From: Sphingomonadales bacterium
GTDB taxonomy: Bacteria; Pseudomonadota; Alphaproteobacteria; Sphingomonadales; Sphingomonadaceae
Assembly: GCA_027489295.1 (NCBI GenBank)
Contig: JAIYAA010000327.1
Coordinates: forward strand, 1-9,917
Direction of reading: 5' to 3'
Length of the DNA stretch: 9,917 nt
The notes below the pieces were generated by a model. That model was not told the origin of the DNA. It ran no database searches and saw only the letters and a program-made list of their open reading frames with translations. Below, in pieces: positions 1 through 9,917 of this stretch; the first letter of the stretch is position 1, and every line of letters starts with the position of its first letter. The translations under genes were made by a program, and so were the position numbers.

Positions 1-1106
1 ACGACATGGAAGGTGACGACGATGCCGATCGCGCGGGGCAGGGCGATCCGCCCGCGTGCCGCGCGTACCAGTACCCGCTCGATCGCCAGCCAGCCGCCGT
101 GCAGCGCGCCCCACAACAGGAAGGTCCAGTTGGCGCCGTGCCACAGCCCGCCGAGCAGCATCGTCAGGAACAGGTTGAGATAGGTCCGAACGCGCCCCTT
201 CCGGCTGCCGCCGAGCGGGATGTAGAGATAGTCGCGCAGCCAGCTCGACAGGCTGATGTGCCAGCGCCGCCAAAAGTCCTGCAGCGAGGCGGCGCGATAG
301 GGCTGGTCGAAATTGCGCGGGAAGCGGTAGCCGAGCAGCAGCGCCAGGCCGATCGCCATGTCCGAATAGGCCGAAAAGTCGCAGTAGATCTGCACCGCAT
401 AGCCATAGGCGCCGAACAGCAAGTCGAGGCTCGATCGGTGCAGCGGATCGCGGAAGGCGGGGTCGACCAGCGCGGTCGCCAGCTCGGAGGCGACCACGAC
501 CTTCTTGAACATGCCCCACAGGATCAGCAGCAGCGCCGCTGCCACGGCCCCGCGCTCCAGCTTTGGCGCGGTCCGGAACTGCGGAAGCAGGTCCGATCCG
601 CGCACGATCGGCCCGGCGACCAGATGCGGGAAGAACGACATCAGCAGCGTCAGGTCGAGCCAGCCCGCCGGCGCGATCCGCCGCTGCTGCACGTCGACCA
701 GATACGACACGGCCTGGAAGGTGAAGAACGATACGCCGACCGGCAGGAACACCTGCAGCAGCGGCACGTCACGACCGAAGCCGAGCGCCAGCAGCAATGC
801 ATCGAGCTGCTCGAGGAAGAAGCCGGCATATTTGAAATAGGCGAGCACGGCGAGGTTCAGCACGACGCCAAGCGCGACCAGCACGCGCCCGCGCGTCGGC
901 ATCGCCGCGATGCCGCGCGCGAGCAGCCAGTTGCCGCTCGCCGAGAGGAACAGCAGCAGCACGAAGCGCCCGTCCCAGGCGCCGTAGAAGCACCAGCTCG
1001 CCATCAGCAGGGCGATCTTGCGCCACTCGTTCGAGCCGTTGAGCGCCCAGGCAATCGCATAGACCGCCAGAAAGAAGAGCCCGAAGCTCAGCGTGGGGAA
1101 CTGCAT
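1..1106 (-). CDS. MBOAT-family membrane O-acyltransferase, AlgI-like (3' end cut by window)
   Basis: Polytopic inner-membrane acyltransferase of the MBOAT family (AlgI, PatA, DltB relatives). The family passes an acyl group, usually acetyl, from a cytoplasmic donor across the membrane to a periplasmic partner that modifies a polysaccharide or peptidoglycan. The 368 visible residues start MQFPTLSFGLFF and are strongly hydrophobic with many membrane segments. Diagnostic MBOAT motifs are WRRWH at about 279-283, followed by a DYLYIPLGG segment, then LWHGANW with His323 and a second His at 336. His323 falls almost exactly where AlgI has its catalytic His322. The ATG lies 5 bp after the stop of the upstream SGNH gene, with a short AAGG just before it, so the gene is probably translated from the same transcript. 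The last roughly 100 residues expected for an AlgI-type protein lie outside the window. The family call is secure; the acyl group and the acceptor glycan are unknown. Confidence 0.92.
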   Translation of the reverse strand, partial: MQFPTLSFGLFFLAVYAIAWALNGSNEWRKIALLMASWCFYGAWDGRFVLLLFLSASGNWLLARGIAAMPTRGRVLVALGVVLNLAVLAYFKYAGFFLEQLDALLLALGFGRDVPLLQVFLPVGVSFFTFQAVSYLVDVQQRRIAPAGWLDLTLLMSFFPHLVAGPIVRGSDLLPQFRTAPKLERGAVAAALLLILWGMFKKVVVASELATALVDPAFRDPLHRSSLDLLFGAYGYAVQIYCDFSAYSDMAIGLALLLGYRFPRNFDQPYRAASLQDFWRRWHISLSSWLRDYLYIPLGGSRKGRVRTYLNLFLTMLLGGLWHGANWTFLLWGALHGGWLAIERVLVRAARGRIALPRAIGIVVTFHV

Positions 1107-1111
1107 CGGCC

Positions 1112-2353
1112 TTAGCGGACGGTCTGGGGAACGGCGCCGGTCGTCGCCATCGCGGCTTCCAGATCGGCTTCGAGCCAGCCAGCGATCCGCGCCGCGCCGG
1201 GGCTGGTGAAATGCACGCGGTCGCCACGCATCAGCGGCGGCACCTGCGTCGCCCAATCGGTGGCGGTGCACCGCCCGCCCATGCGCTGCGACCAGTCCCA
1301 ATAGGCGAAACCAAGCTGGTGCGCGCGCGCCCGCTGAATCGACTGGACGGTGGCAAGCGCCGCGGTCGGCAGCCAGTCGCCCTCGCCGCAGGAAAGCGAC
1401 GTGCCCGCTGCACCCGCCTGGAGCGACGGCAGCTTCGTGGCGGAATCCGGCGCACCGATCAGCAGCATCGGTACGCCCGGCGCGAGACGCTGGAGGCGCC
1501 GCAGGCTGGCTTGCAGCTGCAGGTCATAGCCCGCCGCAGTGAAGCGCGGGTAGAAGGCCTCGTTGGTGCCGAAGGCGACGACGATCAGGTCGGGGCGGTA
1601 TTCGGCAAGCTCGCGCGCCACCACGGCATCGTCGGTGCGATCGTAATGCAGGAGCTGCGCGCCGACCGTGCCGAGATTGGAGAGCGTCACCCCGCCGGCA
1701 CTGGTCTCGGTGGACCATGAGGTGAGGGTGACGGGCCCCAATATGACGGCCACGCTGGCGCTGGTGGCGGGCACGGGGCTGGCCAGCGTGGTGCAGTCGC
1801 TGCCCGCTACCGGGGCAGTGAGCGACCATGATTTCTGCACCCCGCCGATCGCCAGCGATACCGAACCCGCGCCCGGCCCGGTCAGCGCGCAGACGGTGAA
1901 GCGGTCGAAGCCCAGCTCGGACCGATCGGCGCGCAGGCCGATGGTGGACCCGGCCAGCGGCGTCGAGAGCGTATAGCCGGTCAGCCCGAGCGGACCGCTA
2001 CCAGGATGCCAGGCAGCGCCGAAGATGCCGCTGGTCCCCCAGGGTCCGGCCTGGGTCGCGGTGATGTCGCGGGTGAGATAGCCGGCATAGGGTCGCCCGG
2101 GCGGCAGCACGCCGCGTCCGCCGCGGCCGAAGCGCGCCTGGAGCAGCGTCCGCCAGCTGCCGGTCACCTGATCGGCGGCGGTGTGGCTGTCGCCGATCTG
2201 GACGATCCGCACGGTGTGACCGTTGCGGCGCGCGTCGGCGAGCTTGGCGAACACCGGTGCGAGCCGATCGGCATCGCAAAGCGCCTGTGTGCAGGGCGCA
2301 GGCGCGGCAGGCGCAGCGACCTGGAGCATCGCTGCAATCAGGGCGCCGATCAC
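1112..2353 (-). CDS. Secreted SGNH/GDSL-fold hydrolase or O-acetyltransferase
   Basis: Protein of 413 residues with an SGNH esterase/acetyltransferase core. Block I is IGDSH with the nucleophile Ser56, block III is GTNE with Asn264, and block V is DRVH with Asp378 and His381, so the catalytic set is complete. Between blocks I and III lies a long Gly/Ser/Thr-rich segment (about 115-230) that looks like an inserted beta-rich domain, possibly glycan binding. The N-terminus is a short hydrophobic Ala-rich segment ending near APAPC at 18-21. It resembles a signal peptide but lacks basic residues at the front. The start is GTG and overlaps the upstream gene's TGA as GTGA; Met9 (ATG at 2329) is an alternative. 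Four cysteines or more in the mature part fit an oxidising compartment. Sitting between a DUF459 SGNH protein and an MBOAT protein, it probably transfers acetyl from the MBOAT protein to a glycan or removes it. The direction of the reaction cannot be told from sequence. Confidence 0.85.
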   Translation of the reverse strand: MIGALIAAMLQVAAPAAPAPCTQALCDADRLAPVFAKLADARRNGHTVRIVQIGDSHTAADQVTGSWRTLLQARFGRGGRGVLPPGRPYAGYLTRDITATQAGPWGTSGIFGAAWHPGSGPLGLTGYTLSTPLAGSTIGLRADRSELGFDRFTVCALTGPGAGSVSLAIGGVQKSWSLTAPVAGSDCTTLASPVPATSASVAVILGPVTLTSWSTETSAGGVTLSNLGTVGAQLLHYDRTDDAVVARELAEYRPDLIVVAFGTNEAFYPRFTAAGYDLQLQASLRRLQRLAPGVPMLLIGAPDSATKLPSLQAGAAGTSLSCGEGDWLPTAALATVQSIQRARAHQLGFAYWDWSQRMGGRCTATDWATQVPPLMRGDRVHFTSPGAARIAGWLEADLEAAMATTGAVPQTVR

Positions 2354-3294
2354 TTGGCAGCAGCCTCGGTCGTGCCCTCGCGGCGCATCCGCTGCGCCAG
2401 CGTCTCGATCCGCGTCGCAAGCGGCGCGGTAATCCGCTGATAGCCGACGCCCAGCATGTGCAGACCGTCACCGGTGCGCACCAGCTTGCGTGCGCCGGTC
2501 TTTTCGTCGGGAAGATAGGCGGCATAGCGCCCCTGTTCGTCGACCGAACGCGGCCGCGTCTCGAGGAAGGGCACGCCCAGCGCCCGCATATGCTCGGCAT
2601 AGAAGGCGTTCATTGCCTGGATCGAGCCATCGAGCGTGGGATCGCGCATCGCCGGTAGCCCCAGCCAGTACACGCTGGCCCCGGTCGAGCGCGCGACGGC
2701 GACGAACCGATCGATCCGCTCGCCGACCACGCGCTTCCAGCCTTCGCTCAGCAACGGCTGCTCGTGGCCGGCGTCGTAGAAGGGGACGGCATCGTTCGCA
2801 CCGAAGCAGATCACCGCGACGTCGACCGGATCGGCGGCGAGCTGCTCGCGGGCCCGCGCTTCCAGGTTCAGGCGATGATATTGGGTGAACCCGGTCGCCT
2901 CCTTGGCGAAGCGGAGTACCTCGAACCCGGACTCGCGCGGCAGCTGGTGGTCGAGCGCTTCCCACACGCCAACGCCGAAGCTGTCACCGAACACGCCCAC
3001 GCGGACCTTGCCGGTCTGGCGGACGCGGGCGATCGCGACAGCGCTGGCCGCGTCGTCGCGCACCGGTGCAGGCGCAGGCGCCACCGCTACGGCCTGCGTC
3101 GGGATCGACATGGCAACCGGCGCCGGTACGGCAGCGATGGGGCGATGAAGATCGAACGAAAGCCCCACGCCAAGTCCGGCCGCGAAGCCGACGACCAGGA
3201 CGGCACTCCGATCCAGCGACAGCCGAACCCAGCCGAACCGCCGCCTGCGCTTCGGTGACCTCGGGTCATGGGACGCACCTGCGCCCTCGCGCAT
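2350..3294 (-). CDS. DUF459-type SGNH protein, single-pass membrane anchored
   Basis: Protein of 314 residues counted from the ATG at 3294. A basic N-terminus with KRRRR at 14-19 precedes one hydrophobic segment (about 30-47, AVLVVGFAAGLGVGLSF). An Ala/Pro/Val-rich linker (about 53-78) follows, then an SGNH domain predicted to be periplasmic. Catalytic blocks are FGDSF with Ser105, FGAND with Asn167 and Asp168, and DGLHM with Asp276 and His279, giving a complete triad. This block pattern and the alphaproteobacterial setting match the DUF459 family. The ATG was chosen because GGGAG lies 4 bp upstream; an in-frame GTG at 3333 would add 13 residues and has a weaker GGGA upstream, so the start is uncertain. 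Its TGA overlaps the GTG start of the next gene, implying coupled translation. As the first gene of the acylation operon it is likely the periplasmic partner that hands the acyl group onward. The substrate is unknown. Confidence 0.83.
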   Translation of the reverse strand: MREGAGASHDPRSPKRRRRFGWVRLSLDRSAVLVVGFAAGLGVGLSFDLHRPIAAVPAPVAMSIPTQAVAVAPAPAPVRDDAASAVAIARVRQTGKVRVGVFGDSFGVGVWEALDHQLPRESGFEVLRFAKEATGFTQYHRLNLEARAREQLAADPVDVAVICFGANDAVPFYDAGHEQPLLSEGWKRVVGERIDRFVAVARSTGASVYWLGLPAMRDPTLDGSIQAMNAFYAEHMRALGVPFLETRPRSVDEQGRYAAYLPDEKTGARKLVRTGDGLHMLGVGYQRITAPLATRIETLAQRMRREGTTEAAAK

Positions 3295-3540
3295 GTCGCT
3301 CCCGGCCTCGTCATGGAGGGAAAGAAATCTCACCGCACGTCCCGCTCGTCATGGCAACGACGACGGCCTTCGCCCCGGTGGCGAGGCGACGGCCCTTCGT
3401 TTCCGATGTCCCCTGTTCCGGCCAGGCCGCGGTGGATACCGCTTTTCTGTCCGTATCTTGGATGTGCAACTGCGCGCAGAGAAAGTCGAGAGTGGGGACC
3501 GCAAAAAAGCGGGACAGGCGCTCACATCGGCGCGGTGGGT

Positions 3541-3939: not shown

Positions 3940-5355
3940 ATGCCGGTGCAAAAGTTGGTACTCGTCTGCGCATCAGGCGCATTGCTACTTGGTGTCACCT
4001 ATCGCCATCCTGCAACGGCCAGCGACCCTGTCGACGGGGGCAGGGGAACCGCGGCGGCTGATGCGGCAGGAGACGCGGCTGTCCCGCCGATCAACCCGGT
4101 CGTGACCAATTGCAACACCACCCTGCCGCCAGCCCCTGCGAAGGTCACGCCACAAATGGCGCGCAGCGGGCTGCCTTGCGCGCTCGCCTTCAGCGGCAAG
4201 GCGTCGCTGGAGACGCTTCAGCAGGCGTTCGACTTCAACAGCTGGCTGACGTTCGTCGCGCTCAACACGCCCGCGACGACGCCCGGCGATGCGCCGGCGC
4301 CGTGGGAAGGCTGGCAGGACATTTTCAGCCTGATGCTGCCGGACGGGGCGCCGCCGCCGGCCTTCGGCACCGCGCTGCCACCGCCCGCCATCTGCAAGGG
4401 GGCAGGTGCCGGTACCCGCGTGCTGCGGATGATCAGCAAGACGCCGATCACCCCGACGATCAGCGTCGCGGGGCAGCCGCTCAATACCGGACCGCTGATC
4501 GACCAGAACGGCCGCTATGTCCGCTACCAGATCCTCGTGAACCGGCCGATGTACGACTATATCGTGCAGAACGGGCTCTACAGCAAAGCCGGGCAGCAGA
4601 AGTTCACCTCGCCGATCCGCTTTCCCGTCGGCGCGACGACCAGCGGGACGACCGGCACGATCGGCGCCATCGTCGTGAAGGCGGCCTGGAAGGTGCTGGA
4701 TCCAAAGGACCCGAACGACCAGGCGGCAAACTTCCATGTCACCCGCGCCTATGTGTACACGCCCGCCTCGTCCGGTGTGGCGGAAAGCTGCCGGGTCGAA
4801 AAGCTGGGCCTGGTCGGGCTGCACATCGTCCACAAGACGCAGGACGAGCCGCAATGGATCTGGTCGACCTTCGAACATGTCCGCAACGTGCCGCTGTCGG
4901 TGCAGGTTGGCAGCGGCACTACCGATCCGCACTATAATTTCTTCAACCCCAAGTGCAGCGCGTCGGCCTGCAAGGTGAACCAGCAGCCGCCCCAGCCCTG
5001 GGATCCCGCGGCCCCTCCGGGCAGCTTCCGCAGCCAGATCGTGCGCACGACCCGCTATCCGGACATCGCAACCAGCAGCGCCGGCCTGTGGAACGCCCAG
5101 TTCCGGCCGGCGCTGAAGGGCTCGGTCTGGCAGAACTACCAGCTGATCACGACCCAGTGGCCGACCGACGCGACCAACAAGACCGATCCGAACGGCGTGC
5201 CGTTTCCGGTCTTCGCCGCCAACGCGACGATGGAAACCTATGTCCAGGGCAACGTGCCCCAGGCCTCGTCGAGCTGCATGGCCTGCCACGGCAATGCCAC
5301 CAGCGCGGCCGGACGCGAGTCCGACTTCAGCTTCGTTCTCGAAAAAGCGCACTAA
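3940..5355 (+). CDS. Exported cytochrome-c-like protein with one C-terminal heme motif
   Basis: Protein of 471 residues beginning with a signal peptide (basic MPVQK, hydrophobic 6-20, cleavage probably after ATA near 25-27), so it is periplasmic. The only heme-c attachment motif is CMACH at 446-450, close to the C-terminus. No Met follows it, so the sixth iron ligand must come from upstream or be absent. The large N-terminal part is not a standard cytochrome fold. It carries conserved-looking stretches such as GLVGLHIVHKT (290-300), WIWSTFEHV (306-314) and a METY segment before the heme motif, which I recognise only as a family of cytochrome c family proteins. First gene of the dehydrogenase operon, it is the likely electron acceptor for the flavoenzyme downstream. 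AGGGGG lies only about 2 nt before the ATG; an in-frame GTG at 3946 has better spacing and may be the real start. Confidence 0.8.
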   Translation: MPVQKLVLVCASGALLLGVTYRHPATASDPVDGGRGTAAADAAGDAAVPPINPVVTNCNTTLPPAPAKVTPQMARSGLPCALAFSGKASLETLQQAFDFNSWLTFVALNTPATTPGDAPAPWEGWQDIFSLMLPDGAPPPAFGTALPPPAICKGAGAGTRVLRMISKTPITPTISVAGQPLNTGPLIDQNGRYVRYQILVNRPMYDYIVQNGLYSKAGQQKFTSPIRFPVGATTSGTTGTIGAIVVKAAWKVLDPKDPNDQAANFHVTRAYVYTPASSGVAESCRVEKLGLVGLHIVHKTQDEPQWIWSTFEHVRNVPLSVQVGSGTTDPHYNFFNPKCSASACKVNQQPPQPWDPAAPPGSFRSQIVRTTRYPDIATSSAGLWNAQFRPALKGSVWQNYQLITTQWPTDATNKTDPNGVPFPVFAANATMETYVQGNVPQASSSCMACHGNATSAAGRESDFSFVLEKAH

Positions 5356-5368
5356 GGAATCCCGCGAC

Positions 5369-5866
5369 ATGGCTGATCCCGATCCGCTCGACGATTTCGT
5401 CGCGCTATCCGCGCTGCTGACCGGCATCGCGGCGGACAAGCTCCACCCCGAACTCGACGTCTATCAGATGGCCGAGGACTATCTTGCCTATGCCACCGCC
5501 AAGGGTGGGGGGGCATTCCAGCAATTGATCGCGCTCTACAGCGCAAACAAGGCCCAGCCGCCCGCCGCAATCGCCGCGCTGATCTTCGCCGATCAGGCCA
5601 GCGACCTCGCCTATATGGCCAAGGCAGTCATCCTGATGTGGTATCTCGGCGCCTGGTATGATCCCGCCGGGCTGCGCAGCTATTACCAGGCGGCGGCACA
5701 GGGGCAGCATCCCTTCGCCAGCTCGGTCGTGATCTCCAGCAAGGCCTATACCCAGGGCTGGGCGTGGCGGGTCGGGCAGACGCATCCCATGGGCTACAGC
5801 GACTGGCGCTTCGGCTATTGGAACACGCCGCCCCAGCCGCTCGGCGATTTCATCGGGGGGAACTGA
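5369..5866 (+). CDS. Small subunit of FAD-dependent sugar/alcohol dehydrogenase (FAD-SLDH type)
   Basis: Protein of 165 residues resembling the small subunits of membrane-bound sorbitol and fructose dehydrogenases (Pfam FAD-SLDH). These subunits help fold and export the FAD-containing large subunit. Family features are SALLTGI near 14-20, LMWYLGAWYD at about 89-98, and the C-terminal block SSKAYTQGWAW...HPMGY followed by FGYWNTPP (123-155). In described complexes this subunit usually begins with a Tat signal that exports the flavoprotein. Here the protein opens directly with MADPDPLDDF, and no twin-arginine segment exists in any upstream extension. The ATG is 13 bp after the cytochrome-like gene with AAGGA about 10 nt upstream. 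A longer in-frame ATG at 5240 would read through the previous gene's C-terminus and is unlikely. Only 2 bp separate it from the GMC gene, supporting a complex of the two products. Confidence 0.82.
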   Translation: MADPDPLDDFVALSALLTGIAADKLHPELDVYQMAEDYLAYATAKGGGAFQQLIALYSANKAQPPAAIAALIFADQASDLAYMAKAVILMWYLGAWYDPAGLRSYYQAAAQGQHPFASSVVISSKAYTQGWAWRVGQTHPMGYSDWRFGYWNTPPQPLGDFIGGN

Positions 5867-5868
5867 TC

Positions 5869-7773
5869 ATGGCCACGACACCCGAATATGACGTCGTCAT
5901 CGTCGGCGCGGGCATCGCCGGCGCGCTGATCGCCAAGCAGCTGGGCGCCGCGGGCAAGACGGTGCTGATCCTCGAAGCCGGCATGGACGGTCAGGGGTCC
6001 TATGCGGAGTTTCTCGAGCGCTTCTATCTGGCCCAGGCCAAGGTACCGGAATCACCCTACACGCCGCCGATCGTCGACACCCAGCCGGACGGGACGCAGG
6101 TGCTCGCCGATCCCGGCAAGATGACGGTCGGCCGGCCGACCGTACTGACGCTCGGCGCCGGCAACTGGCAGGACCCGAAACAGGCCTATCTCGATCAGCA
6201 GGGCCCGCTCGCCTTTGCGAGCACCTATGAACGGGTCGGCGGCGGCACCATGCGCCACTGGCTCGGCACCAGCCTCCGCTTCGTGCCGAACGATTTCAAG
6301 ACGAAGACGGTGTACGGCGTCCAGGAGGACTGGCCGATCGACTATGCCCAGCTCGAGCCGTGGTACGGCAAGGCGGAGGCGGAGATCGGCATCGCCGCCG
6401 ACGTCGCCGACCAGGCCTATCTCGGCATCCAGTTCCCGAGCGACTATCATTATCCGATGCCGCCGATCCCCGCCTCGGTGGTCGATCAGGCGGTGGCCGC
6501 GGCGCTGCCGAAGCTGCCGCCCCAGGAGGGGATCACCCTGGCGGTGACCAACACGCCGGCGGGGCGCAACTCGATCCCCTATCAGGATCGGCGGGTGTGC
6601 GCGGGCAACACCAACTGCATTCCGATCTGCCCGATCCAGGCCAAGTACGATGCCAGCGTGACGCTGGGCATGGCGCTGCAATATCCCGGTGTGTCGATCC
6701 GCTACCAGACCGTCGCCAGCGAGGTGCTGGTCGGCGATGATGGGCAGGTAAGCGGCATCCGCTATCTGGAATATGCCGACCAGGGCGGCCCGGCGACCGG
6801 CAGCGGCACGGTGACCGCGACACGCTACGTGATCGCCGGCCACGCCATCGAGACGCCGAAGCTGCTGCTGATGTCGACCAATGGCGGCAAGACTCCGAAG
6901 GGCGTCGCCAACAGCAGCGGGCATGTCGGCCAGCATCTGATGGATCACCCCATCTATCTCGCCTGGGCGATGAGCGCCGATCCGGTATTCGGCTATCGCG
7001 GGCCGCTGTCGACCGGCGGCATCGAGAGCATGCGCGACGGCGCGTTCCGCAGCAAGCACGCGCCCTTCCGCATCGAAATCGGCAACGAAGGCTGGAACTT
7101 CGCGGTAGGCGATCCCTATACGACGACGCTGGACATGGTGCTCGGCACCAACCTCAGCCAGCTCAACGGCACCGGCCCTGTCGGCACCGCCGATTATGGC
7201 GACGCGCTGACCGGCGCGCTCAACCATGCGCTGACCCGGCAGTTCCGCCTCGGCTTCCTGCTCGAACAGACCCCAGACGACGATTGCACGGTGGGCCTCT
7301 CGCCGACCTTCAAGGACGCGCTGGGCCTGCCGCGGCCGCAGATCCGGTACAATTTCTCCGACTATACCAAGATGGGCTTCGTCGTCTCGCGGCGAGTGGC
7401 GAGCAGCATCTACCAGGCGATGGGCGCGACCGAATTTACGACTTTCCCGACCGCCGAGGACATCGCCACCGGCGACCCCACCGCGTTCGCGGTGACCTAT
7501 GACGCCAACGACGTGCCGGTGCCCGAAGGCACGCCGGGGGCGACGACCGAATATTTCCGCTATTTCGGCGCCGGCCATGTCGTCGGCACCTATCGGATGG
7601 GGGCCGATCGTGCCGCTTCGGTCGTCGACTATCAGCAGCGTAGCTGGGATCACCCGAACCTGTTCCTCGTGGGCAGCGGGGTGTTCCCGACGGTGGCGAC
7701 CGGCAACCCGACGCTGACGATCGCCGCGCTGGCCCTGTGGGCGGCGGAGACCATCACGCACGACCTCGGCTGA
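5869..7773 (+). CDS. GMC-family FAD oxidoreductase (dehydrogenase large subunit)
   Basis: Flavoprotein of 634 residues in the glucose-methanol-choline family, which oxidises an alcohol or sugar hydroxyl to a carbonyl. The Rossmann FAD motif is GAGIAG at 13-18 with the ribose-binding Glu36. Other GMC blocks are GGGTMRHW (124-131) and GQHLMDHP (354-361). The C-terminal domain carries GHVVGTYRMG with catalytic His570 and ATGNP with Asn613, the usual His/Asn pair. A cysteine cluster, C244-x5-C250-x3-C254, lies where fructose and glucose dehydrogenases bind a 3Fe-4S cluster, but the middle cysteine of their CC pair appears to be Ala245. No signal peptide is present, normal for this family when a partner supplies it. 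The start is fixed by MATTPEYDVVIVGAG, with GGGGGGAA upstream inside the small-subunit gene; a further upstream ATG at 5764 gives a non-homologous extension. The substrate cannot be told. At 634 residues it is longer than the roughly 540 of glucose or fructose dehydrogenases. Confidence 0.92.
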   Translation: MATTPEYDVVIVGAGIAGALIAKQLGAAGKTVLILEAGMDGQGSYAEFLERFYLAQAKVPESPYTPPIVDTQPDGTQVLADPGKMTVGRPTVLTLGAGNWQDPKQAYLDQQGPLAFASTYERVGGGTMRHWLGTSLRFVPNDFKTKTVYGVQEDWPIDYAQLEPWYGKAEAEIGIAADVADQAYLGIQFPSDYHYPMPPIPASVVDQAVAAALPKLPPQEGITLAVTNTPAGRNSIPYQDRRVCAGNTNCIPICPIQAKYDASVTLGMALQYPGVSIRYQTVASEVLVGDDGQVSGIRYLEYADQGGPATGSGTVTATRYVIAGHAIETPKLLLMSTNGGKTPKGVANSSGHVGQHLMDHPIYLAWAMSADPVFGYRGPLSTGGIESMRDGAFRSKHAPFRIEIGNEGWNFAVGDPYTTTLDMVLGTNLSQLNGTGPVGTADYGDALTGALNHALTRQFRLGFLLEQTPDDDCTVGLSPTFKDALGLPRPQIRYNFSDYTKMGFVVSRRVASSIYQAMGATEFTTFPTAEDIATGDPTAFAVTYDANDVPVPEGTPGATTEYFRYFGAGHVVGTYRMGADRAASVVDYQQRSWDHPNLFLVGSGVFPTVATGNPTLTIAALALWAAETITHDLG

Positions 7774-7775
7774 CC

Positions 7776-7797
7776 GGCGCGGGGAGGGCGCCGCGCC
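7776..7797 (+). other. GC-rich stem just after the GMC stop codon
   Basis: GGCGCGG (7776-7782) and CCGCGCC (7791-7797) can form a 7-bp stem with an 8-nt loop, starting 3 bp after the GMC stop. No run of T follows, so it is not a classical intrinsic terminator. It could protect the upstream mRNA end or weaken read-through into the next gene. Its right arm is shared with the longer inverted repeat at 7790-7857, so only one of the two can form at a time. Confidence 0.35.
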
Positions 7798-7857
7798 CGC
7801 CACGACCCCGGCAGGTCTCGCTCGAACCGCCGAGCCACCGGAAGTGGCGGGCGCGGC
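7790..7857 (+). repeat. 14-bp perfect inverted repeat between GMC and SnoaL-ADC genes
   Basis: GCCGCGCCCGCCAC (7790-7803) is the exact reverse complement of GTGGCGGGCGCGGC (7844-7857), with a 40-nt loop. The structure ends 29 nt before the next start codon. Its right arm can alternatively pair locally, GCCAC (7834-7838) with GTGGC (7844-7848) around a CGGAA loop. With the 7776-7797 stem this makes three mutually exclusive hairpins, an arrangement reminiscent of an attenuator or RNA switch. No leader peptide or known riboswitch was recognised. High local G+C favours pairing, but a 14-bp perfect match within 113 bp is unlikely by chance. Confidence 0.5.
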
Positions 7858-7886
7858 ATTGCTCGAACACGTCTCGGAGAACCGGC

Positions 7887-9089
7887 ATGACCAGCGAAGC
7901 AAACGAAGCCACCGTCGCGCGCCTCGGCGCCTATTTTGTCGCGGGCGATCTGGAGGGTGCGTTCACCTGCCTCTCGCCCGACTTGGTCTGGACACTGCCC
8001 GCACCCCCCGCGCTCCCCTATGGCGGGCGCTATGTCGGGCATGAAGGCTATGCCGAATGGGTCCGCCGGGTTCGCGCGACGCTGCACTTCGACAGCGTCA
8101 CCATCCAGCCGGCGGTGGGGCAAGGTAGCCAGGTCGTCCTGCTGGGGCACGAGGCAGGCACCGCGATCCCGACGGGTCGCCCCTATGGCTATAGCTGGGC
8201 GCAGGTGTACGGCTTCGGCCCGGACGGCCTGATCGCTACCATGGATCAGGTCTTCGATCCGGCGAACATCCTCGCGGCGCTCACCAGCCCCGGCCAGCTT
8301 CCGACGATCCCCGACGGCTTCTCGCTGCCCTTCTATTATTCCTCGCTCACCGATTTCGAGGTCCTGTATCTGGTCGAGCCCGCGGTGGTGGCCAACTATC
8401 TCGCCGGCACCGGGCTCAGCCCCGCACTGTTCGGCGGTCGCGCCTGCGTCTCGTACAATTTCCAGAGCTATACCGGCCAGTTTCCGTTCGGCACCGCCAT
8501 CACCCAGGAAATCGAGCTCAACATCGTCGCCTATCCGGATGCTGCGCGTGGGCAAGTGGTGCAATTGTCGTTCGAAGACTTCGTGACGGGCAACGACCAG
8601 ACCAAGCTGCTCGGCAACCACCGCGTGCACGTGCCCTGCGATAACGACAACGCCATCGCCGCGGGCATGCAGCTGTTCGGCGAACCCAAGTTCAAGACCA
8701 GCTTCACGATGCGATTTCCGTCGTTGAACGATGCCAGCGTCGCGACCTGGGCATTTACCTGCAACGATCCCGAAATGCCGGCGACGACGATCTTCTCGGT
8801 CAGCGCCGATCTCTCGGGGCTGACCGCGGTACCGGCCGATATTGCGCCGCAGACCGAATACGGCCTGTTCCAGACCAGGCTGATCGGCTGCCGCTGGAAC
8901 ATGCTGCAGCCAAGCCGCGCCTATTTGCTCGGCGATGGCGATCGCAGCCGCGTCCAGCTGCACCTGGGCGAGAGCGGGCATGCGATGCGGCGCGATGTGG
9001 CGACGTTGCTGGCGGGCGTACCGCCAGCGGCGGTGCGCACCTTCCAGTCGCAGCCTGCCGCCATCCAGAGCCGCGCATATTTCGTCTGA
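7887..9089 (+). CDS. Fusion protein: SnoaL/NTF2-like domain plus acetoacetate-decarboxylase-like domain
   Basis: Protein of 400 residues with two parts. Residues about 5-132 look like a SnoaL/NTF2-like cone fold: an AYFVAGDLEGAF helix, then LSPDLVWTLP, the GHEGYAEWV segment and a C-terminal strand with VYGFGPDGLIATMDQVFD. Such domains often act as isomerases, cyclases or binding modules for small ligands. Residues about 143-400 resemble the acetoacetate decarboxylase family. The key match is AAGMQLFGEPKFK (258-270), like the family's G-x3-x-G-x-P-K signature, placing Lys268 where the Schiff-base lysine sits. This suggests decarboxylation or related imine chemistry on a beta-keto acid, but active-site relatives with other reactions exist. 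No signal peptide is seen, so it is probably cytoplasmic. The ATG at 7887 has GGAG 7 nt upstream; in-frame sequence further upstream gives an Arg/Pro-rich shadow. It probably belongs to the dehydrogenase operon despite the 113-bp gap. Confidence 0.75.
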   Translation: MTSEANEATVARLGAYFVAGDLEGAFTCLSPDLVWTLPAPPALPYGGRYVGHEGYAEWVRRVRATLHFDSVTIQPAVGQGSQVVLLGHEAGTAIPTGRPYGYSWAQVYGFGPDGLIATMDQVFDPANILAALTSPGQLPTIPDGFSLPFYYSSLTDFEVLYLVEPAVVANYLAGTGLSPALFGGRACVSYNFQSYTGQFPFGTAITQEIELNIVAYPDAARGQVVQLSFEDFVTGNDQTKLLGNHRVHVPCDNDNAIAAGMQLFGEPKFKTSFTMRFPSLNDASVATWAFTCNDPEMPATTIFSVSADLSGLTAVPADIAPQTEYGLFQTRLIGCRWNMLQPSRAYLLGDGDRSRVQLHLGESGHAMRRDVATLLAGVPPAAVRTFQSQPAAIQSRAYFV

Positions 9090-9105
9090 AGGGAAGGGAA
9101 GAACC

Positions 9106-9917
9106 ATGGTCCATAGCCACCCAACGATGCCGGACGGCCCGGTGACCGAATATGCGCTGGCGTGGCCCGACGCTTCGGAACCGGCGGCATCGGCCATGGC
9201 CACGCCCAATGCCTGCTGCGCACCCGGCGGAGGATCGACGCATGAACTGGTGTGGGACCGCCAGCGCGACGGCACGGTCTTCTGGGTGTCGGGGCAGATG
9301 TACGACCACATCGCGCGCATCGAGATGGACGGCAGCGCGCGCTATTTCGCGATGCCCCCGGGCAGCCTGCCGCACGGCATGACCTTCGATTCCGCGGGGC
9401 AGCTGTGGGTGACGTTCGAAGGAATCGGGCAACTCGCGCGGATCGATTCCGACGGCGCGGTCGCGGAGACGGTCGACGTGCAGCTCCATGCCGAGGGCAT
9501 GGTCGAACCATTCAACACGCGGCCGCACGGGCTCGGGATCGCGGGCGACGGCGCCCTCTGGTTCACCGGCAAGCGCAGCAACACGGTCGGCCGCGTCGAT
9601 CCGGTCTCCCGCGCGGTCCTGCATGTCGGGCTGCCAACCATCGGCGCAGTACCGATCTACCTTTCGGCCGGGCCGGACGGCAACATGTGGTGCACCGAGC
9701 TGGGCGGCAGCAGCATCGCCCGGATCACGCCGGAGGGTGCGGTCACCGAATTCGTCATCCCCACCTCCAATAGCCGCCCGATCGCGATCCTTCCCGGACC
9801 TGACGGCCGGTCGATGTGGTTCAGCGAGGAAGCCGGGCGCCGGATCGGCCGCATCGATATGGCGGGCGCCATCACCGAATTTCCCGTGCCGCTGACCAGC
9901 TCGACCTCGATCCTCGC
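9106..9917 (+). CDS. Virginiamycin B lyase (Vgb)-like beta-propeller protein (3' end cut by window)
   Basis: The 270 visible residues contain at least five repeats of the Vgb/streptogramin-lyase propeller pattern, GDG-LWFT...N-IGRID..G.ITEF. Repeat cores lie near 58-81 (FWVSGQMYDHIARIE), 99-118 (LWVTFEGIGQLARID), 150-166 (ALWFTGKRSNTVGRV), 190-215 (PDGNMWCTELGG, then ITPEGAVTEF) and 232-259 (PDGRSMWFSEEAG, then AITEFPV). A seven-bladed propeller is expected, so the rest is outside the window, including the region where Vgb has its catalytic His and Glu. The N-terminus has about 45 extra residues with a Cys37-Cys38 pair and no signal peptide. The ATG follows the previous gene by 16 bp, with an AAGGGAAGGGAAG purine run as ribosome-binding site. 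Known Vgb opens cyclic depsipeptide lactones by elimination; here the operon suggests a metabolic role rather than drug resistance. Other functions of the propeller are possible. Confidence 0.82.
   Translation, partial: MVHSHPTMPDGPVTEYALAWPDASEPAASAMATPNACCAPGGGSTHELVWDRQRDGTVFWVSGQMYDHIARIEMDGSARYFAMPPGSLPHGMTFDSAGQLWVTFEGIGQLARIDSDGAVAETVDVQLHAEGMVEPFNTRPHGLGIAGDGALWFTGKRSNTVGRVDPVSRAVLHVGLPTIGAVPIYLSAGPDGNMWCTELGGSSIARITPEGAVTEFVIPTSNSRPIAILPGPDGRSMWFSEEAGRRIGRIDMAGAITEFPVPLTSSTSIL

Follow-up and report, generated by a model that had tools for sequence, protein, structure and literature searches.

A conserved bacterial gene unit of an FAD-SLDH-type small subunit, a GMC flavoenzyme and an ADC-like protein, with a possible role in oxidative decarboxylation

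The window analysed here, the whole 9,917-nucleotide stretch of contig JAIYAA010000327.1 from a Sphingomonadales bacterium (assembly GCA_027489295.1; G+C 66.7%), carries five genes, numbered 1 to 5 below: a monoheme cytochrome, a small subunit of the FAD-SLDH type, a GMC flavoprotein, a protein combining a SnoaL domain with a domain like acetoacetate decarboxylase (ADC), and a Vgb-like beta-propeller. Genes 2 to 4 are a local form of a conserved small subunit/GMC/ADC unit; the linkage and order of the genes, the folds of their products and their conserved catalytic motifs are what the analysis shows. Our preferred reading, to which we give an even chance, is that this unit oxidises a hydroxy acid and then decarboxylates the product through a Schiff base.

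Linkage of ADC-like and GMC genes across genomes

GTDB genomes were scanned with the alignment of the ADC family, loci being located by the patterns LFGEPKFxT and E[ILV]ELNI..; this recovered 29 loci distributed over Pseudomonadota, Acidobacteriota, Myxococcota, Bacteroidota, Cyanobacteriota and Actinomycetota. In 27 of them a GMC protein homologous to that of the window is encoded no more than 10 kb away from the ADC-like gene, and in 24 of these 27 the two neighbours share a strand. On plasmids, three of four ADC-like loci have a GMC gene (Cupriavidus, Streptomyces and Ruegeria); a fifth plasmid match spanned only the SnoaL domain and was left out of the count. Since the 29-locus scan used motif patterns, a hidden Markov model (HMM) search was run on whole Streptomycetaceae genomes: among 200 sampled from the family of Streptomyces sioyaensis (G016), whose own locus L017 was already among the 29, the ADC-like gene is carried by 44. 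The other 43 genomes supplied 45 loci, the weak match G1311 (2.3e-5, with a stop) being excluded, and 44 of these show the order small subunit, GMC, ADC on one strand. The window's GMC was the query throughout, joined by a Streptomyces GMC for the Streptomycetaceae loci. In 35 of the 41 measured Streptomycetaceae pairs the GMC and ADC matches are separated by -9 to 240 bp; in the other six, where a ferritin-like gene lies in between, the distance is 1154 to 1312 bp. The genome, plasmid and Streptomycetaceae sets together make up 78 ADC loci.

The background rate of such proximity is low: in 11 genomes with 1 to 20 GMC genes each, the chance of finding one in a random 20.8 kb stretch is 0.4-5.7% per locus, a figure to be read as a background rate only, these genomes having been taken from loci known to have a GMC. 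In two of the 11, all GMC matches lie at the ADC locus (3/3 in G001 and 1/1 in G007). ADC and GMC distances are also correlated (Mantel r 0.588 over 26 of 68 pairs after removal of near-duplicates; none of 5000 permutations reached this value), a value in which the species tree is unaccounted for. The loci are non-independent, with nine from Chryseobacterium, two from Symploca and one contig that apparently occurs twice (L027, L028). Contig ends cut several of them and could hide genes (including L006, L007, L010, L020, L026 and L029, and further L109, L112, L123, L130 and L136). The ADC-like family is patchy: in the phylum of G003, 2 genomes out of 247 have it (G003 itself and a partial match), and in the family of G021 the sole carrier among 220 genomes is G021.

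The initial annotation, made from the window alone, would have regarded the arrangement as incidental if relatives of the SnoaL-ADC and Vgb-like genes were rarely next to the GMC trio elsewhere. For the ADC-like gene an incidental neighbourhood is rejected, given the adjacency counts above and the chance rate. The SnoaL domain gives a divided result, being present in 5 of the 29 genome loci and one of the four plasmid loci, and in none of the 45 from Streptomycetaceae. Of the five families, the core recurs, and it is preceded by the cytochrome in 5 of the 29 loci; the propeller was found in none of the 78.

At two Skermanella loci (L023 and L025, around position 10000) a solitary ADC-like gene stands by ThiC and cobalamin genes; the genome of L023 has a cytochrome-small subunit-GMC trio at a separate place (L073).

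The SnoaL-ADC protein

The N-terminal domain of gene 4 matches SnoaL_2 with 44.6 bits (cut-off 27), and the NTF2-like fold also matches. In fold comparison the ADC fold extends over the entire C-terminal domain, at 11-16% identity. Canonical ADCs act through a Schiff-base lysine, and their active site also holds an Arg and a Glu. K268 of gene 4, within a G-x-P-K motif, aligns with the lysine of the canonical PKK motif in a local HMM-HMM alignment (E 6.2e-07), while the second lysine of the PKK pair is Phe in the gene 4 family. In an alignment of 73 rows, comprising 72 matches selected by us out of 119 plus the window, the K268 position is Lys in 70 rows and E208 is invariant in all 73; E208 faces a gap in the HMM-HMM alignment to canonical ADC. 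The 29 genome loci are unusable for judging conservation of the lysine, since the patterns that selected them contain the motif itself. The profile of the 73-row alignment gave no match against PDB sequences. The ADC-like relatives are mostly unnamed or labelled "hypothetical protein", a few being called ketosteroid isomerase-like or acetoacetate decarboxylase; one named relative of gene 4 is from Allosphingosinicella.

The flavoenzyme and its small subunit

Gene 3 passes the Pfam cut-offs for both GMC_oxred_N and GMC_oxred_C. The initial annotation called gene 3 an oxidase, but its nearest solved structures are dehydrogenases: 6a2u, an FAD-glucose dehydrogenase, at E 1.2e-84, and 7w2j, a fructose dehydrogenase, at E 5.9e-67. 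Gene 3 retains the GMC catalytic His and Asn motifs and, in the 6a2u alignment, three Cys whose counterparts in 6a2u hold a 3Fe-4S cluster. This triplet is in its usual context, as judged by eye, in 37 of 38 GMC rows including the window, the sole exception being the second GMC of L029. Because the triplet of FAD-glucose dehydrogenase is retained, gene 3 is probably a dehydrogenase.

Gene 2 matches FAD-SLDH (PF12318) marginally, with 24.5 bits against a cut-off of 24.2. No twin-arginine translocation (Tat) signal was seen on inspection of its N-terminus, made by eye rather than with a signal-peptide program. A script pattern flagged none of 25 small subunits, a set drawn from outside L100-L144, although the small subunit of L051 starts with a sequence, SRRAM, that appears Tat-like by eye. 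Genes 3, 4 and 5 likewise have no evident signal by eye. With no signal evident on genes 2 to 5, we would assign flavoenzyme and ADC-like enzyme together to the cytosol, and the unit is probably cytosolic by this visual assessment. In a Collimonas GMC complex of similar kind, the small subunit is reported to carry a Tat signal (PMC12542777).

Locus architectures and accessory genes

The loci display two principal architectures. In one, the order is cytochrome-small subunit-GMC-ADC, as in the window, Acidobacteria (L003, L027/L028) and Symploca (L007, L021). In the other, it is small subunit-GMC(-GMC)-ferritin-like PF12902(-SnoaL)-ADC; Serratia, an Enterobacteriaceae strain, Parachitinimonas, Balneatrix and Calothrix also have one more GMC and a decarboxylase of the UbiD type. 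PF12902 was scored on four proteins (L002, L004, L005 and L009), the other ferritin-like genes being tblastn relatives. The block small subunit-GMC-GMC-ferritin-like-SnoaL-ADC-GMC-UbiD is common to Calothrix and four Pseudomonadota loci, whose ADCs form one tree branch (98/90), which suggests that the whole block was transferred between Calothrix and Pseudomonadota. In Calothrix the two GMC, ferritin-like, SnoaL, ADC-like, GMC and UbiD genes span L014:4596-15347.

The SnoaL domain is also found in other fusions: in L002 it is joined to the ferritin-like protein, and at L001:8825-11344 a single 839-aa frame without internal stop unites ferritin-like, SnoaL and ADC-like domains. SnoaL-bearing ADCs occupy separate places in the tree (the window clade, P0013 and the Pseudomonadota/Calothrix clade), in which several deep forks are open. 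Given this scatter, the SnoaL-ADC pairing probably arose, or was retained, more than once.

Cytochrome and ferritin-like genes may be alternatives to each other: among 33 loci, five have a close cytochrome gene upstream of the small subunit, 21 a ferritin-like gene, seven neither and none both (Fisher test, p 0.003 when loci are counted and only 0.055 when lineages are). Two loci speak against a strict rule. In L022 a ferritin-like gene is accompanied by a remote relative of gene 1 (28%) on the opposite strand, and L006, cut upstream and scored as having neither, has a remote relative (31%) downstream.

Two further families occur near ADC-like genes. One is another family of heme proteins (L005:11549-12997 and relatives; cluster C3, 10 loci), whose member in L005 has a P460-like domain and a CxxCH. 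The other is a conserved 343-aa protein without a Pfam match in Chryseobacterium/Flavobacteriales (L009:10847-11878 and relatives; cluster C6, 8 loci).

The monoheme cytochrome

Gene 1 has a single CxxCH near its C-terminus and, by eye, a signal-like N-terminus; the N-terminus of its relative P0142 appears lipobox-like, again by eye. Gene 1 has no Pfam or NCBIfam match; 1073 homologues with E<=0.001 were found among 7999 candidates scored, and C446, C449 and H450 are invariant in 57 aligned rows. Its structural model (predicted local distance difference test, pLDDT, 78.4) was built without heme and matched no PDB fold (best Foldseek E 0.3); given the missing heme, we claim no new fold.

A close relative (40-44% identity) is found upstream in the five ADC loci counted above, L006 being cut on that side. 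Elsewhere, of 337 genomes in the class to which G022 belongs 7 have a gene-1 relative, as do 8 of the 398 genomes in the order containing G091. Thirteen regions were read from 12 of these 15 genomes: one (L073, 41% identity) is the Skermanella trio, and the other 12 (25-33%) have no GMC, small subunit or ADC, though one of them, L072, has a ferritin-like gene. There (L072:7301-15028) a distant gene-1 relative and the ferritin-like gene lie beside a LodA-type quinoprotein oxidase. On a Paracoccus plasmid (L052:4038-9053) a gene-1 relative is two genes downstream of a tyrosinase gene.

The initial annotation assumed that the flavoprotein passes electrons to this cytochrome. The case is weaker than assumed, the cytochrome being exported-looking and the small subunit lacking a visible Tat signal. 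Gene 1 may serve as an optional and perhaps indirect outlet for electrons.

The Vgb-like propeller

Gene 5 matches Vgb_lyase (PF24684) with 156.4 bits (cut-off 50), and reaches 103 and 93 bits with the NCBIfam Vgb(A)/(B) models, whose cut-off is 600, scores that apply to a protein truncated by the window. The His and Glu of the last blade of Vgb are catalytic. P0240, 97% identical to gene 5 and 359 aa at full length, ends in MHRI...WFSE, but the phmmer alignment places another blade there; the window stops before the last blade. Named relatives, among the matches listed, include Sphingomonas and Allosphingosinicella.

As a conserved member of the module the propeller is rejected on its absence from the ADC loci. 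From the 92 genomes with Vgb matches in the order containing G091 the three top-ranking places were read, as were three places in Skermanella; none of these (L094-L099) showed another gene of the set, and neither did the 11.5 kb read around the nearest relative in the 398 genomes of that order (51%, G694). Nearer to the window an association is possible, on two metagenome contigs: among the matches listed, cytochrome P0140 and Vgb P0271 both have 5 contigs with a longest of 17,076 bp, and cytochrome P0142 and Vgb P0288 both have 3 with a longest of 47,089 bp. These matching values suggest shared contigs, a hint, taken from contig statistics rather than from the contigs themselves, that in two close relatives Vgb is found together with the cytochrome. 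Neither length recurs among the 119 ADC-like matches. Gene 5 looks like a local addition of a close lineage.

Mechanistic interpretation and alternatives

In our preferred reading, the GMC protein with its small subunit would oxidise the hydroxyl of a small hydroxy acid, e.g. a sugar acid, to a beta-keto acid, with electrons passing via FAD and the Fe-S cluster, and the ADC-like domain would then decarboxylate this product via K268. The SnoaL domain would probably isomerise, dehydrate or cyclise an intermediate, the exported cytochrome could drain electrons in the optional manner proposed above, and the Vgb-like protein may act on a lactone by opening or eliminating it. Oxidation followed by decarboxylation had already been suggested by the initial annotation; the idea now gains from the co-localisation and the conserved Schiff-base lysine. 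We tentatively extend it, at well under an even chance, to a dedicated cytosolic oxidative-decarboxylation unit in at least six phyla with interchangeable outlets, either the exported monoheme cytochrome or the ferritin-like PF12902 protein.

Several observations weigh against this preferred reading. The ADC score of gene 4 (PF06314, 19.4 bits) is under the gathering cut-off of 29.8, and the lysine is lost in three of the 73 aligned homologues. The GMC is on the opposite strand in three of the 27 loci (L004, L020 and L029), ADC-like genes without a GMC in the stretch read occur in the two Skermanella loci, one Nocardia plasmid and Streptomycetaceae locus L119, and conversely the cytochrome-small subunit-GMC trio occurs without ADC in Azospirillum, Bradyrhizobium and Skermanella (L050, L051, L073). 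With 113 bp before gene 4 a single transcript is not assured, and a hydroxy acid is a predicted substrate. Further, some ADC-superfamily members that share this lysine are aldolase-dehydratases. The main alternative, to which we give less than an even chance, is that the ADC-like domain is a Schiff-base enzyme of the aldolase/dehydratase type (cf. MppR and the Streptomyces bingchenggensis aldolase-dehydratase) and that the unit tailors products of specialised metabolism: the GMC enzyme would make a ketone, which the ADC-like enzyme would condense, dehydrate or cyclise. However, in Streptomycetaceae the largest cluster of non-core flanking genes reaches 13 loci out of 47, where GMC reaches 43, so that no wider biosynthetic cluster is evident there (the clustering used a crude open reading frame caller, and only 17 ADC genes were grouped). 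The UbiD carboxy-lyase in 5 of the 29 loci also fits decarboxylation chemistry.

That all five genes form one complete pathway, with the Vgb-like protein as a ring-opening last step and the cytochrome as direct acceptor, would suit the tight gene spacing and the paired contig statistics of P0140/P0271 and P0142/P0288; we consider it unlikely in view of the 78 ADC loci without Vgb, the isolated relative in G694 and the apparent separation of cytochrome and small subunit by export. Less probable still, and doubtful at best, is an exported dehydrogenase complex for sugars or alditols, of the ordinary fructose, glucose or sorbitol dehydrogenase type, with unrelated downstream genes: its hallmarks are present in the nearest solved relatives of gene 3, the SLDH-family small subunit and the cytochrome, but the small subunit has no visible Tat signal, the cytochrome has a single heme and no family match, and the ADC linkage is far above chance. 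We thus return to oxidation followed by decarboxylation by genes 2 to 4 as the preferred interpretation.

Gene layout and remaining features of the window

The five same-strand genes and their intergenic gaps (13, 2, 113 and 16 bp), as first annotated, agree with the open reading frame coordinates (Table 1). An Rfam search of the window gave no match, the promoter scan returned 3 promoter-like sites against 1.3 expected and the terminator scan 3 terminator-like sites against 3.4 expected; there were no phage records, and no match to viral contigs was confirmed. Upstream of the five genes, divergent genes on the minus strand (positions 3-3333) encode an O-acyltransferase of the MBOAT family (PF03062) and a pair of SGNH/GDSL proteins, one with DUF459 and the other with PF13472; this set may serve to acetylate a polysaccharide or the wall.

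Table 1. Positions and properties of the five genes in the window
Feature	Position	Strand	Description
Gene 1	3940..5355	+	471 aa; monoheme c-type cytochrome, exported-looking, family without a name
Gene 2	5369..5866	+	165 aa; small subunit of FAD-SLDH type, no Tat signal seen
Gene 3	5869..7773	+	634 aa; GMC flavoprotein, probable dehydrogenase large subunit; Fe-S Cys triplet, GMC His/Asn motifs
Gene 4, whole	7887-9089	+	400 aa
Gene 4, N-terminal SnoaL/NTF2-like domain	7887..8285	+	residues 1-133
Gene 4, C-terminal ADC-like domain	8286..9089	+	residues about 140-400; predicted Schiff-base lysine K268
Gene 5	9106..9917	+	270 aa, open at the window end; Vgb-like beta-propeller, Pfam PF24684 E 9.2e-46

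Significance and relationship to known systems

In the open-licence PubMed Central (PMC) literature, which was the literature covered, no description of the small subunit-GMC-ADC unit was found; all parts except gene 1 belong to known superfamilies. The linkage gives the ADC-like family a firm genomic context and with it a testable order of reactions, and predicts cytosolic GMC enzymes resembling sugar dehydrogenases that are coupled to C-C bond chemistry. Its frequency in the Streptomyces sioyaensis family means that tractable hosts exist.

The FAD-glucose, fructose and sorbitol dehydrogenase complexes are alike in having a GMC protein with the Cys triplet, a PF12318 small subunit and an adjacent cytochrome gene. 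The cytochrome subunit of these known complexes has three hemes. The window differs from them in the lack of a visible Tat signal, in its single-heme cytochrome without family match and in the ADC-like partner. The LodA/LodB loci offer a more remote parallel: L072 has relatives of gene 1 (26%) and of the ferritin-like protein (29%) beside LodA, but differs in its type of oxidase and has no ADC or GMC match. PF12902 has been reported adjoining fungal lodA (PMC4417212), a neighbourhood that L072 resembles.

Gene 5 belongs to the same propeller family (PF24684) as virginiamycin B lyase (Vgb), but by the NCBIfam rule it is not a streptogramin lyase, a verdict passed on the truncated protein. With the SnoaL/NTF2-like isomerases and cyclases, such as TerC and ketosteroid isomerase, gene 4 shares the fold and the SnoaL_2 match, and is distinguished from them by its fusion to the ADC-like domain. 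Within the ADC superfamily (ADC, MppR, Swit_4259 and the aldolase-dehydratases), to which gene 4 is related at the low identity given above and below the Pfam cut-off, its family stands apart by the Phe in place of the second lysine and by a near-constant GMC partner.

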